Of a DNA stretch of 64,000 bases, positions 1,254-13,124 are shown piece by piece. The stretch's first letter is position 1; every line of letters begins with the position of its first letter. The position numbers and the translations under genes are program-made. The notes beneath the pieces were generated by a model, which worked only from the letters and a program-made list of their open reading frames with translations, ran no database searches and was not told the origin of the DNA. The stretch is from contig JARGFT010000002.1 in the NCBI GenBank assembly GCA_029210645.1, forward strand, positions 104,016 to 168,015, read 5' to 3'. This stretch comes from Anaerosomatales bacterium. Lineage in GTDB: Bacteria > Actinomycetota > Coriobacteriia > Anaerosomatales > SLCP01.

Positions 1254-1925
1254 CTACCCGAAGACCCGAAACACGACAACGAGGTAGTAGGCGGCTACTC
1301 CCATCATCGTCAACCCTGCGACTACGCTGATCGGGCGCTCGTACGTGACCAGGGAGTTGACCATCCAGCGGCTCGACGCGCGACCGACGAGCGAGAACGC
1401 GAGCAGCGGCGACACGATGCCCAGAGTGTAGGCAGCGAACTGGGCGACGTTTGCGACGGCATCGGTGGTGGTCGCCACGCGCGCGAAGAAGGCGGCGATC
1501 AATGCGGGATTGCACGGGATGACGATGGCCCCGAAGAAGAACCCGTAGACAAAGGCGGCCAGGTACGGGTTCGAGATGCGGTTCGGACGCACCTTCCGTT
1601 TGGGCTTCCACCCGACCAGCAACAGGAGTCCCGCGACCAAGATGATGGCGAACGCGATCGGAGAGACGATGCCGATGACCTCGGTGAGGGAGGCCTGGAG
1701 CCAGGTCGTGAAGATGACGCCGACGAGCGCCATGAACGCGATGACGCCAGCGCTCACGAGCACGCCGAAGAGCGCAAGGTAGCGCCTGGAGTCACGCCTT
1801 TCTCCGACCGTGCGGGCGAGGCGCGCAAGGAATGCCGGATACAGCGGTATGACGCAGAGCGCGGTCAGCGGAGTGAGCACTCCGAGCCAGAAGGTGACCG
1901 CGAGATCGCCGATGGACACCATCAT
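1254..1925 (-). CDS. ccdA: CcdA/DsbD-type transmembrane thiol-electron carrier
   Basis: 223 residues with about six hydrophobic helices, the usual size of CcdA. The family takes reducing equivalents from cytoplasmic thioredoxin across the membrane to extracytoplasmic thioredoxin-like proteins, often for cytochrome c maturation. The two redox cysteines sit in TPLTALCVIPLYPAFL near residue 24 and VIPCNPALIAAFF near residue 140, each in a Pro-rich kink. The gene starts 12 bases after the stop of the selenocysteine redoxin, its likely partner. The many cytochromes c encoded further right give it an obvious use. The first motif is more degenerate than in Bacillus CcdA. Confidence 0.85.
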   Translation of the reverse strand: MMVSIGDLAVTFWLGVLTPLTALCVIPLYPAFLARLARTVGERRDSRRYLALFGVLVSAGVIAFMALVGVIFTTWLQASLTEVIGIVSPIAFAIILVAGLLLLVGWKPKRKVRPNRISNPYLAAFVYGFFFGAIVIPCNPALIAAFFARVATTTDAVANVAQFAAYTLGIVSPLLAFSLVGRASSRWMVNSLVTYERPISVVAGLTMMGVAAYYLVVVFRVFG

Positions 1926-1937
1926 GAAGCCCCGTGC

Positions 1938-2546
1938 CTACCGTGCTTCATCGGCCAATGCCTGAAGTTCCTCGGCGGACTTCACTCCCCGCTCGAGCGC
2001 CTCTGCCTCGGTCTGGTCGGTGTTCACGAGTATCTTCGGTGAGAGAGGAGGCGTGATGATGAACGTCCCGTACTCGTCGACCAGTGCCTGCGTGAGGACA
2101 GACGGCGAGATGGCGAAGTAGCCTTCAAAGCCGTTTCTCTCGATATGCTCGCGAACCGCTTCCTCGTTCTCGTTGGCGTCGATATCGAGCGAGACGACGA
2201 TCACGTCATCGGTCTGCTGCACGAGCTTGGTCGTCTCCGACAACTGCCGGCGACAGGTGCTTCACCAGACCGCGAACGATTTGACCAGGACCGGCGTACC
2301 CGCAAAATCCGAGATCCGGAAGGTCTCGCCGGTCTCGACGTCCACGAGTTCGGTGTCCAGCCAGGCGATCGCGGAGGGTTCGACAGGCTCGGCAGGTTCC
2401 TCAGCAGGCTGCTCCGGCTGGCCCGTCTCCGTGGGTTCGGTCACCGGCGGGGGCGGCTCGGCGACATCCTGAGAGCACCCGGCGACAACACCACCGGCGA
2501 GCGCGGCGACCAGACACACGGCGATCATGCGGAGCGTGGGGCGCAT
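1938..2546 (-). CDS. Exported lipoprotein redoxin, probable selenoprotein (UxxC active site)
   Basis: The frame is open from the ATG at 2546 to the stop at 1938 except for one TGA at 2264-2262. Read through, it gives 202 residues: a lipoprotein signal (LAGGVVAGC, lipid-modified Cys24), a Pro/Glu-rich linker, then a TlpA-like thioredoxin fold. The TGA falls exactly at the first redox residue, giving FAVW-U-STC-RRQL, so Sec95 and Cys98 form a UxxC pair where homologues have CxxC. A hairpin follows the TGA at SECIS distance. The domain continues past it with DDVIVVSLDID and a later ITPPLSPKILV segment. CcdA follows 12 bases downstream. A nonsense mutation is the alternative. Confidence 0.8.
2227..2264 (-). 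promoter_or_regulatory. Candidate bacterial SECIS element after in-frame UGA
   Basis: The UGA codon occupies 2264-2262. Twenty nucleotides later a stem GUCG-GAGA-CGAC (2241-2230) forms. It is extended by two U-A pairs across one bulged C (2243-2242 with 2228-2227). The apical loop starts with G about 24 nucleotides after UGA, inside the range known for bacterial SECIS elements. The stem is short, so structure alone is suggestive; the position at the UxxC codon is the stronger argument. Confidence 0.55.
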
Positions 2547-2622
2547 GGGCGACCGCCCGAGTCTACGGTGCGAGGACCTGTCAGTAGGGTTCCCGAAAAG
2601 CGCGCATCGCCAACAGCGGCCG

Positions 2623-5022
2623 CTACTCGTAAGCGATTGCGTCGCGCACGCTGACCTGCGCCGCACGGAAGGCGGGCAGCATGCTCGCGCCCACCGCTAT
2701 CAGGGTCACCGCGCCAAGCCAGATGCCCACGCCTGCCCATGAGTACTCGAAGGTCAACGGGAGCCCCATCGCCGCCTCCAGCATGTCGAGCAGAACAGAA
2801 CTCATCGGATACGAGATCAGCGCGCCGAGCCCCCAGGCAATGAGCGCGATGACCACGCCTTCCGTCACGAAGATCTGGTAGATCGAGCCGTGCGAGGCAC
2901 CGATCGCCCGCATCACTCCGATCTCACGCGTACTCTCGAGTACGTTGATCGTCATCGTGCCGGTCAGACCGATCACACCCACGACCGAGAGGATCACCCC
3001 CATGATGGCGAGGAAGGTCACCAAGATCCCGAGCTGGCTGGCGACCTGATCGCGCTGCTCGCTCTGCGTCTGGGTGAACGCGACCGGAACGGACCGCTCC
3101 TCGAGCCTCTGCTCCACCAGACGTGCGACCCGCATCTGCTCGGCCGCCTCGGAGGTCGGCGTTCGGACCTGGAGCCGGGTGACCGCTCCGGTCCCTCCGG
3201 CCAGCGAGTCGAGGTAACCGGAGGGCGTGAACGCAACGGGCCCCATAAGCCCCGCCGTCACGACACCGACCACCTCGAAGTCACGCTCCTCGCCGAGCAG
3301 GTTGAACGTCGCGTTCGTACCGACCGCGAGCTCAGGCTCGCTCTTGACTACATCGGAGTTCAGGACGATCGCCGATGCGTCCGTCGGCTCCAGCCACCGG
3401 CCTGCGGTGACGCGCGGGGCGACGAAGTCCGATTCCGGTTGTACGCCGATGATGTCGATGCCGTCGGACTCGCTTCCGTCGGCACGCGAAAGCACCGCGC
3501 GGTACTCGGGCATGCTCGAGACCGCCACCACCCCCTCGACTCGCGATGCGATGCGATCGACCGTCTCGGCACTCTGGGGCAGCGCGAAGTAGAACTGCGC
3601 GTCGAAGCGCCACATGTCGACCTCGTCGACGGTGGCGAGTATCGACGTCCGCACGCTCATCACCGACATGACCACCGCCGAGGCGAGCGTCAGCGTGATA
3701 AGCGTGAGGGCGAGGCGCCCCTTGCGCAGGAACGTGTTACGCAGCGAGAGCGCGACCGGCCGCGGAAGGCCGCGGAGCAGCCCGAGCGCGCGGTCGATCA
3801 GCCCGTGACCGAAGGACGTCCCAGACATGCCGGTCGCGTTCAGCGCCTTCACCACGCTGATACGCGTCCCCGCACGGACCGGAACGATCGCCGCAAGGAG
3901 CGGAACGGCGATGCCGACCGCGACTCCGAGCGCTACGACGTAGGCCGGCGGCGCATAAGACGTCACCCGGAAGTTGAGCAGGTCTGCGGCGAAGCCCGTG
4001 AACCAGCGGCCCGCAGCCGCTCCGGCAGGCATGCCGACGACCACCGCAAACAGCCCGTACACGGTCACCATCACCAGGTACATCCAGGTGACCTGGTCGG
4101 CCCGTCCCCCGATGGCCTTCATGATGCCGACCTGACTGACCTGCTGCGACATGATCGCCTGCACCGTCGTCACCACGAGGAACCCGGAGAGGAACAGGCT
4201 CAGGACTCCCAGCGCGAGCAGCAGGAGAGAGACCCCTCGGAAGATGTCGCCGAGGAAGTGGCTGCCCGGCTCGGGCACGCTCGTCCTCATCACGCGCACG
4301 CCACGCGAGATCAAGACGTCGTCGCGGATGCTCATGGCGAGCCGGCTCGCCTCGGCCTGGGTGGGCTCACCCTCGGCCACTGCCAGGATGGTGCTGAAGT
4401 AGTCGGGCTCGTCGAGCATACGGAGCGTCTCCATCGACACGTAGCCCGTGGGGCCTGCGACGAAGTGTGCCGGAAACGCATTGATGTCGTGAACCAGCCC
4501 GACCACATTGAGGGTGGCGCGCGTGCCGCTCGCGGTTTCGACCGTGATGACGTCCCCCGGCTCGTACTCCGACATCATATTCACCGAGCGCTCGAGCAGG
4601 ACCTCGCCGGCACCGGGAGGCCAGGAGCGCCCAGCCTCGAGCGTGGTCCTCTCTATACGCGCGGCGGCGATGTTCGCCACTGCGTGGACCTGAAGGGTGT
4701 CCCAGCCGGCCGAGAGTACCCCGCGGGGCTGCTCCCCGCCGGTGAAGCGGACCGGAAAAGTCCTTCGGCCCTCCGCCATGCGCACGCCCTCGACGCGCTC
4801 GACCGCACGCACGACCGAGGAGTCTGCTGCGTCGACCTCGAAGGTGATGGTGGGTGCCATCGACTCGGCATACACCGACTCGAACTCGCGCAACAGGATG
4901 CCCCGCCCGCCCATGACCACCGTGATCGCGAAGATGCCCACCGCGATCGAGAGCACCACAAGCAGTGTCCGAAACCGGTGCCCCGTGAGATCGCGCCAGA
5001 CCTTGCGCCAGCGGGGGCTCAC
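2623..5022 (-). CDS. ABC transporter permease, FtsX/MacB-like, two-repeat type
   Basis: 799 residues, GTG start. The architecture is an N-terminal helix (TLLVVLSIAVGIFAITVV), a large extracytoplasmic domain, a block of three helices near residues 270-370 (FtsX unit), then a second copy: helix, extracytoplasmic domain and three C-terminal helices. This is the long LolC/E- or YknZ-like layout of permeases that extrude lipoproteins, peptides or antimicrobials, or act mechanically on envelope proteins. It starts one base after the stop of its ATPase, so the two form one exporter. The substrate cannot be told. The redoxin gene begins 76 bases downstream. Confidence 0.85.
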   Translation of the reverse strand: MSPRWRKVWRDLTGHRFRTLLVVLSIAVGIFAITVVMGGRGILLREFESVYAESMAPTITFEVDAADSSVVRAVERVEGVRMAEGRRTFPVRFTGGEQPRGVLSAGWDTLQVHAVANIAAARIERTTLEAGRSWPPGAGEVLLERSVNMMSEYEPGDVITVETASGTRATLNVVGLVHDINAFPAHFVAGPTGYVSMETLRMLDEPDYFSTILAVAEGEPTQAEASRLAMSIRDDVLISRGVRVMRTSVPEPGSHFLGDIFRGVSLLLLALGVLSLFLSGFLVVTTVQAIMSQQVSQVGIMKAIGGRADQVTWMYLVMVTVYGLFAVVVGMPAGAAAGRWFTGFAADLLNFRVTSYAPPAYVVALGVAVGIAVPLLAAIVPVRAGTRISVVKALNATGMSGTSFGHGLIDRALGLLRGLPRPVALSLRNTFLRKGRLALTLITLTLASAVVMSVMSVRTSILATVDEVDMWRFDAQFYFALPQSAETVDRIASRVEGVVAVSSMPEYRAVLSRADGSESDGIDIIGVQPESDFVAPRVTAGRWLEPTDASAIVLNSDVVKSEPELAVGTNATFNLLGEERDFEVVGVVTAGLMGPVAFTPSGYLDSLAGGTGAVTRLQVRTPTSEAAEQMRVARLVEQRLEERSVPVAFTQTQSEQRDQVASQLGILVTFLAIMGVILSVVGVIGLTGTMTINVLESTREIGVMRAIGASHGSIYQIFVTEGVVIALIAWGLGALISYPMSSVLLDMLEAAMGLPLTFEYSWAGVGIWLGAVTLIAVGASMLPAFRAAQVSVRDAIAYE

Positions 5023-5782: not shown

Positions 5783-6325
5783 TCAGAGCATTCGCCGTTC
5801 GCGGCGCTGGCGATGCGCCTGCCACAGGATGAGCGCCACGAGCAGTCCAGCGGCCCCCACCGCGCCCTTCCACGGCCTGACGGGATTGTCTCGAGGACCA
5901 CCAGGCTGGATCACATCGAGCGACGCGGCGTGAACGTCGAACTCTCCACCATGGGTGTCGCAGGCCACGTTGACGACACCGGTGACGCGTATGGTGTCGC
6001 CGGTCATCTGGTAACCGCCAAACACCTCGACGACCTCGGACAGCTCGTCGGGAACCCAGATCCCGAAAGCGCTGCCGTCGTAGAGGATGTTGACCCATGA
6101 GCCTCCTCCGTGCGCCCGGAGGCGCTCCCCGATAGCCTCACCCTGGGTGACGATCACCGAGCCGTCCAGAGCGCGGTCTATCTCTATCACGTCCGCAGGC
6201 GTCATCACGCCGGCAGGCACGTTCGCAACGGCAGGCGCCGCTGCGAACAGCAGCGCCGCAGCGGCCAGTAGTGCAGCGGCGAGCACTCGAGTGTCCCTGC
6301 GCATATGGCGCCCCGAGGCCCTCAT
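5783..6325 (-). CDS. Exported membrane-anchored protein, possible OB-fold domain
   Basis: 180 residues from the ATG at 6325, which overlaps the trkH stop (ATGA) and has GGGGGAGG upstream. There is a signal peptide (LAAALLAAAALLFAAAPAVA), a compact extracytoplasmic domain of beta-strands (GYQMTGDTIRVTGVVNVAC, then EFDVHAASLDVIQPG) resembling small OB-fold exported proteins, and a C-terminal helix (GAVGAAGLLVALILW) with a basic cytoplasmic tail. It sits between a potassium channel gene and an ABC exporter, so it may be an accessory envelope protein of either. Function unknown; the OB-fold assignment is by strand pattern only. Confidence 0.7.
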   Translation of the reverse strand: MRASGRHMRRDTRVLAAALLAAAALLFAAAPAVANVPAGVMTPADVIEIDRALDGSVIVTQGEAIGERLRAHGGGSWVNILYDGSAFGIWVPDELSEVVEVFGGYQMTGDTIRVTGVVNVACDTHGGEFDVHAASLDVIQPGGPRDNPVRPWKGAVGAAGLLVALILWQAHRQRRERRML

Positions 6326-12210: not shown

Positions 12211-13124
12211 GTAGCCATGACGACATTCGGTCCGGCGTGAGCCGCCCGGATCCCGCGGGCGTGCACGGCGGCGTGACGCTGACCCGGCGCAACTTCCTAC
12301 GCGGACTCGGCGCCACCGCGGGCGTGATGGCCGCAGGTGTGATTCCGGCCGCACTGACTACCGCGCCCCGCGCGGTAGCCGCGGGTGAAGAGAGCGGCGA
12401 TCACGGCGACGATCCGCTCGCGCACTTCAAGGGCGACCAGGCCTTGAACTATCCGGGTCGTCCCGTATCCTACGCCGAACCTGCCGGTCCCGAGCAGTGG
12501 GCGATGGTGATCGATCTCCAGGCATGCATCGGCTGCCGACGATGCGTCTACGCCTGCGTGAAAGAGAACAACATCGGGCGCACCTCGGGCTTCACCTACA
12601 TCAACATCCTTGAGATGGAGAAGGGCTTCGTGGAGCTCGAGAGCTCAAAGCTCGACTACGTCGACGCCGGCGACCCGAACCGGTTCTACATGCCGGTTCA
12701 GTGCATGCACTGTGGCAACCCATCGTGCGTGCAGGGCTGCCCGGTCAAGGCGACGTGGAAGGAGCCCGACGGCATCGTGGTCGTCGACTACGACAAGTGC
12801 ATCTGTTGCAAGAACTGCCTGGTGACCTGCCCCTACGAGGCGCGACATGTGAACTGGGTGGCGCCACAGGTCCCCGAGAACGAGGTCAACCCGAAGGTCC
12901 CGCTGGAGGAGAAGGCCGGCGTCGTCGAGAAATGCACCTTCTGCATCCACCGAACGCGTCAAGGCATGACCACGAAGTGCGTGGAGGTGTGTCCCGTGGG
13001 TGCGCGCAAGTTCGGCGACCTCAACGACCCGGAGAGCGACGTGTCGATCTTGCTCGCAACACGACGCGTGTTCCGGCTCAAAGAGGAGCTCGGCAATAGC
13101 CCGCGCATCTGGTATGTGGGGTGA
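12207..13124 (+). CDS. Tat-exported ferredoxin-like subunit with four FeS clusters (DsrO/HybA/NrfC-like)
   Basis: 305 residues. A twin-arginine signal (TRRNFLRGLGATAGVMAAG) shows it is folded with its cofactors before export. Four Cys clusters follow: CIGCRRCVYAC, CMHCGNPSCVQGC, CICCKNCLVTC and CTFCIHRT..CVEVC. This is the pattern of four-[4Fe-4S] subunits that sit next to NrfD/PsrC membrane proteins and pass electrons between quinol and periplasmic-side redox partners. It begins in the stop of the preceding cytochrome gene and ends six bases before the NrfD gene. Confidence 0.9.
   Translation: MSSHDDIRSGVSRPDPAGVHGGVTLTRRNFLRGLGATAGVMAAGVIPAALTTAPRAVAAGEESGDHGDDPLAHFKGDQALNYPGRPVSYAEPAGPEQWAMVIDLQACIGCRRCVYACVKENNIGRTSGFTYINILEMEKGFVELESSKLDYVDAGDPNRFYMPVQCMHCGNPSCVQGCPVKATWKEPDGIVVVDYDKCICCKNCLVTCPYEARHVNWVAPQVPENEVNPKVPLEEKAGVVEKCTFCIHRTRQGMTTKCVEVCPVGARKFGDLNDPESDVSILLATRRVFRLKEELGNSPRIWYVG

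Follow-up and report, generated by a model that had tools for sequence, protein, structure and literature searches.

A predicted selenocysteine-containing redoxin lipoprotein encoded beside ccdA in Anaerosomatales, with DUF3179 proteins as candidate partners

Within the 64,000 nucleotide stretch of an Anaerosomatales bacterium genome analysed here (the window; C22:104016-168015 of a 1.98 Mb source assembly), the reading frame of an exported redoxin contains a TGA codon, which raises the questions of whether this codon is read as selenocysteine (Sec, U) and what such a protein would do outside the membrane. An earlier note, made from the letters of the window, had placed a probable selenoprotein at 1938-2546; these coordinates are correct, while the strand, left unstated in that note, is the minus strand (2546..1938), and translation of the plus strand across the interval is meaningless. 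When TGA is read as Sec, the gene specifies 202 residues (MRPTLRMIAVCLVAALAGGVVAGC...AVWUSTCRRQ...ITPPLSPKILV...DEAR*) and ends at a TAG stop codon (1940-1938). The product begins with a signal peptide carrying a lipobox (VVAG-C24; 2475..2546). The only in-frame TGA is codon 95 (2264-2262), at the first position of the UxxC motif in AVWUSTC, and Cys98, the C of U-S-T-C, is encoded by TGT (2253..2255) and forms an invariant alignment column. Minus-strand translation thus confirms a single TGA at the place of the first active-site Cys, with the frame intact on both sides. The prediction that gene calling would split the gene also holds, with the open reading frame (ORF) listing under the standard code breaking it into 2666..2262 and 2243..1938.

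An orthologue is present in 12/69 Anaerosomatales genomes, with exactly one internal TGA in each of the twelve. A thirteenth TGA-bearing orthologue is encoded in a MAG labelled Bacillota (L043; VGTO01000003.1). This Sec redoxin is of the Anaerosomatales type and the accompanying ccdA is 81 % identical to that of the window; L043 is probably a mislabelled MAG or a contaminant contig. The TGA falls in the same alignment column in 13/13 Sec-form orthologues, while 72 Cys-form orthologues recovered by a scan of GTDB contigs carry TGC or TGT in this column (72/72), so that the alignment with Cys homologues, proposed earlier as a check, places Cys exactly at the TGA. Two patterns were used in the scan, one of them with a Cys codon, and Sec forms outside the order are thus under-sampled. 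The Cys forms are mostly archaeal (Woesearchaeota, Pacearchaeota, Methanosarcinaceae and haloarchaea), with further representatives in Chloroflexi, Spirochaetes and a few others. None of the close relatives found has another stop codon or a deletion at this position, a pattern which the earlier note had named as contrary to its claim, and none has Cys either. The Sec forms group on one side of a branch with support of 99/98 in a tree whose root is not known; a single change from Cys to Sec appears likely, a direction that we infer from this unrooted tree. Differences at third codon positions are about twice as frequent as at first and second positions, before and after the TGA alike, which points to purifying selection continuing 3' of the codon. 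Three TGA codons in the window have a coding base pattern on both flanks, and that of the redoxin alone lies inside a domain. The TGAs at 13122 (+) and 30683 (-) were rejected as Sec codons, as they mark gene-gene junctions between an Fe-S protein and NrfD and between two response regulators, respectively. Because it occupies one column in all thirteen orthologues and is flanked on both sides by the third-position excess, the redoxin TGA represents more than chance.

The selA, selB, selC and selD genes, whose presence had been suggested as a test, all occur in the source genome, in one cluster (about C22:78744-83864) ~20 kb before the window. Their scores are 600 bits for selA (cut-off 268), 391 bits for selB (cut-off 242), 72.1 bits for selC (tRNA-Sec; cut-off 47) and 353 bits for selD (cut-off 125). 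The SelD of the source genome (L017:10836-11865, -) itself has a TGA at its catalytic site (SSKAGUAAKWG), and a mechanical ORF call begins selD after this Sec codon. Across the order, selB exceeds the cut-off in 51/69 genomes, including 9/12 genomes with the Sec redoxin; among the three redoxin genomes where it is missing, G034 has a tRNA-Sec, and the other two assemblies are 65 % and 85 % complete. The other three members of the source genus (G058, G059 and G060) have no detectable redoxin, despite selB scores over the cut-off in at least G059 and G060; gene loss or gaps in the assemblies may account for this.

A SECIS-like hairpin with a G-starting loop had also been noted at a suitable distance from the TGA. 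The distance stands and the loop does not: the best hairpin (2255..2232; GUC-G-CCGGC-AGUU-GUCGG-A-GAC with a flanking U-G pair) comprises 9 bp with one G.A mismatch and an apical loop AGUU (2245-2242), in which G is second, 16 nt past the TGA. Its energy (-12.2 kcal/mol in a 40-nt fold) is not unusual against dinucleotide shuffles (z = -1.1), and a 60-nt fold after the TGA adopts another structure (z = -0.4). Published bSECIS constraints comprise a loop of 3-9 nt with G in the first two positions, a stem of 4-16 bp, a distance of 16-37 nt after the UGA and an MFE of at most -7.5 kcal/mol (PMC13188914), and the hairpin lies within all of these values, with its spacing at the lower limit. In a best-hairpin search, the same loop and spacing occur in 8/13 orthologues, while another form is best in 5/13. 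Over a nine-sequence alignment, 90.1 % of cells are paired, compared with 35-75 % for slid versions, and compensatory changes are present, as a suggested covariance test might reveal: pair 18/25 is seen as C-G, G-U and U-A, and pair 16/27 as C-G and G-C. In the former, the third position of an Arg codon is paired with the first position of a codon that specifies Ser, Ala, Thr or Val depending on the orthologue, and because this partner codon varies, the covariation is not explained by the protein. Overall, the apparent covariation is modest. In L029 a different hairpin occurs, with an energy not distinct from shuffles and a loop (GGUCU) that presumably resembles the E. coli fdhF loop. Under synonymous-codon shuffling the hairpin is only marginally more stable, with the Sec forms leaning to structure (2/13 at p < 0.05); the Sec-versus-Cys contrast in this test is confounded by G+C content and was not relied on. 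The case for this putative SECIS element rests on comparison of orthologues rather than on energy.

Conservation of the TGA, its replacement by Cys in homologues, the presence of the Sec machinery and the hairpin together support the selenoprotein proposed earlier, and on this sequence evidence the redoxin gene almost certainly encodes one. A reading in which translation truly ends at the TGA, or in which the TGA stems from a sequencing error, so that the locus is a broken pseudogene or a pair of small proteins, would agree with table 11, where TGA is a stop, and with the two listed frames. This reading is effectively refuted, and extremely improbable: the same TGA recurs in 13 orthologues drawn from many assemblies, selection by codon position is intact past it, Cys occupies its column elsewhere, the genome has full Sec machinery, and the second frame would begin within the catalytic helix.

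The protein matches the Pfam Redoxin domain (34.5 bits; cut-off 26.6), as well as AhpC-TSA and Thioredoxin. In the AF2 model (pLDDT 89.6) the active site is situated on the helix after strand 86-91, with this helix (96-111) starting directly after U95, and P170 lies immediately ahead of strand 171-174, as expected for a cis-proline. The best Foldseek matches are ResA, M. tuberculosis DsbF and pneumococcal Etrx1/2, with E-values of 1.4e-9 to 3.7e-9 to ResA-type structures. The lipobox residue C24 is shared by all aligned orthologues, and this motif suggests that the redoxin is a lipoprotein. The NCBIfam cut-offs are far from reached (TlpA 29.3 vs 230, ResA 26.5 vs 170 and DsbE 19 vs 123 bits), and the redoxin is therefore a relative, not a member, of the TlpA, ResA and DsbE equivalogs. 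The earlier description as TlpA-like is thus apt for fold and sequence class (Redoxin/AhpC-TSA, with a ResA-like structure) and fails for equivalog membership. The WAxxUGC_long model NF041054, with a cut-off of 300 bits, gives a score of 25.7, the motif here being AVWUSTC and not WAxxUGC.

The ccdA gene (1254..1925, -), recognised as an ORF with a weak match to DsbD-type membrane electron transporters, begins 12 nt downstream of the redoxin on the same strand. The coupling of the two genes, observed previously in the window, extends to 76/80 loci across bacteria and archaea; of the four remaining loci, two break off immediately past the redoxin. The only clearly recurrent further neighbour family is DUF3179 (13/42 scanned neighbours). 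In a dedicated search, DUF3179 was found near the redoxin in 47/72 Cys loci, and in 34 Cys loci its start lies no more than 1.5 kb downstream of the redoxin, which places it next to ccdA. DUF3179 (PF11376) is a listed selenoprotein family with a UxxC/T motif (PMC13188914), and its near-invariant motif in these loci is TYCPLCGSG. In four Chloroflexi loci (L053, L056, L059 and L074) a DUF3179 with YUPLC is encoded directly after ccdA, together with a Cys redoxin, while the source genome encodes an unlinked DUF3179 lipoprotein (C42:7094-7783; about 5765-6889 of L162) that reads FUPLCGS. Elsewhere in the order the DUF3179 gene has TGA in G060, G061 and G062 and Cys in G053 and G057. The family occurs in 4/12 redoxin genomes versus 2/57 others of the order (Fisher p = 0.007). 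In a fold search, no PDB structure matched DUF3179 with an E-value below 0.02. A search for VKOR found none, and a plasmid search gave no match. A small exported protein without a Pfam match is encoded at about 5783-6300 (-) of the window (ANVPAGVMTPADVIEIDRALDGSVIV...), from which the redoxin is separated by an ABC transporter (MacB/FtsX type); in L023 the gene for a similar protein immediately precedes that of the redoxin, as it does in a different frame in L024.

In the proposed mechanism, SelB would insert Sec at the UGA, aided by the hairpin that follows it. Cytosolic thioredoxin would supply electrons, which CcdA, the product of the next gene, would carry across the membrane to reduce the U95-C98 selenenylsulfide of the redoxin, and the reduced redoxin would in turn reduce extracytoplasmic proteins. 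Among candidate partners the DUF3179 lipoprotein, which has a CPLC or UPLC motif of its own, ranks first. It is very probable that the redoxin is an exported, lipid-anchored UxxC selenoprotein that reduces extracytoplasmic proteins, with DUF3179 as the best candidate among these, and a position on the outer face of the membrane, fed by CcdA, can be held with equally high confidence. The direction of electron flow is presumed by analogy with CcdA/DsbD biology and the pneumococcal CcdA-Etrx pathway. Whether DUF3179 is a client of the redoxin in the source organism is a closer call, at somewhat under an even chance. DUF3179 cannot be the sole client, because it is absent from 8/12 Sec-redoxin genomes and unlinked in the source genome. 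A relay of two selenoproteins outside the membrane, from CcdA to the Sec redoxin (USTC) and on to the Sec DUF3179 lipoprotein (UPLC), is proposed more tentatively still.

Two other roles compete with a DUF3179 client. The redoxin may instead serve general extracytoplasmic thiol repair, acting in the manner of Etrx on methionine sulfoxide reductases or on many oxidised proteins. Its gene pair resembles etrx2-ccdA2 and the fold is similar (PMC3914529); furthermore, MsrB is encoded in the source genome and one MsrB adjoins a Cys-form locus. However, MsrB is unlinked in the source genome, and a single Msr was counted among the scanned neighbours, against the thirteen DUF3179 proteins, so that this role appears rather improbable. 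Slightly less probable again is that the Sec redoxin is a reductant of the ResA/CcmG type, dedicated to cytochrome c maturation (system II), and no more than similar to a general redoxin. CcdA and ResA are the classic pair of this system, the nearest solved structures are those of ResA, and ResB is present in the source genome. Anaerosomatales also carry many multiheme cytochromes (PMC9686372). ResB, however, is far more widespread in the order (60/69 genomes) than the redoxin (12/69); the 98 % complete G061 encodes the redoxin but lacks ResB, and no ResB gene was seen adjoining the redoxin. Many of the Cys homologues belong to DPANN archaea and haloarchaea, and the low NCBIfam ResA score also opposes this role. 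As the redoxin shows neither linkage to ResB nor a matching distribution, cytochrome c maturation is a weaker rival to a DUF3179 client, and as the only role it was rejected.

UxxC selenoproteins of the redoxin and TlpA type are a known kind, and a prokaryotic selenoprotein catalogue lists a "Redoxin family protein" (PF08534, UxxC) (PMC13188914, Table 1). In the open-access literature, nothing specific was found on Coriobacteriia selenoproteins or on a CcdA-linked redoxin selenoprotein. Three things appear new: the Sec subfamily of Anaerosomatales, which scores below the cut-off of every NCBIfam model and was set against the catalogue entry by description only; the archaeal Cys family of the redoxin; and the module of redoxin, CcdA and DUF3179, in which one partner or both have Sec. 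The earlier note, borne out on the selenoprotein and its coupling to ccdA, had missed DUF3179 as a partner as well as the Cys family in archaea. A Sec enzyme of a widespread subsurface and sediment lineage has thus been overlooked, as gene callers split its gene and no NCBIfam model covers the subfamily. Since one catalytic position holds Sec in some members and Cys in others, apparently through a single Cys/Sec switch, the redoxin family lends itself to a clean natural comparison of the two residues. For DUF3179, a selenoprotein family of unknown function, the association with a CcdA-redoxin electron supply gives a concrete functional lead. If the relay is true, the module would be a thiol-driven extracytoplasmic enzyme system of archaea and bacteria, in which Sec would have been adopted separately in the carrier (Anaerosomatales), the client (Chloroflexi) or both (source genome).

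Among known systems, the catalogue redoxin (representative HEU0032618.1), compared by description only, shares the Pfam domain and UxxC motif, and its entry is without the ccdA pairing. The UGC-containing TlpA selenoprotein (NF041054) is likewise a ResA/TlpA-like selenoprotein, with UGC in place of UxxC. DUF3179 selenoproteins also have Sec in a UxxC motif and also occur in the source genome, but have a beta-rich fold without PDB match and are not redoxins. ResA, TlpA and CcmG (DsbE) share the fold, membrane anchoring, helix-start active site and cis-proline position, whereas they have Cys where Sec occurs here, and the redoxin forms a distinct subfamily in which no link to cytochrome c biogenesis was seen. 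A close parallel in gene organisation is the pneumococcal pathway from CcdA via Etrx1/Etrx2 to SpMsrAB2, which has been shown experimentally and also pairs an exported thioredoxin-fold lipoprotein with ccdA (PMC3914529); the redoxin locus shows this arrangement, with an invariant lipobox Cys and ccdA alongside. In that system electrons pass from cytosolic thioredoxin through CcdA and the lipoprotein to a surface client encoded alongside or elsewhere, a route that we infer for the redoxin. Etrx uses Cys and has a methionine sulfoxide reductase as client, while the redoxin uses Sec and has DUF3179 as its recurrent neighbour.
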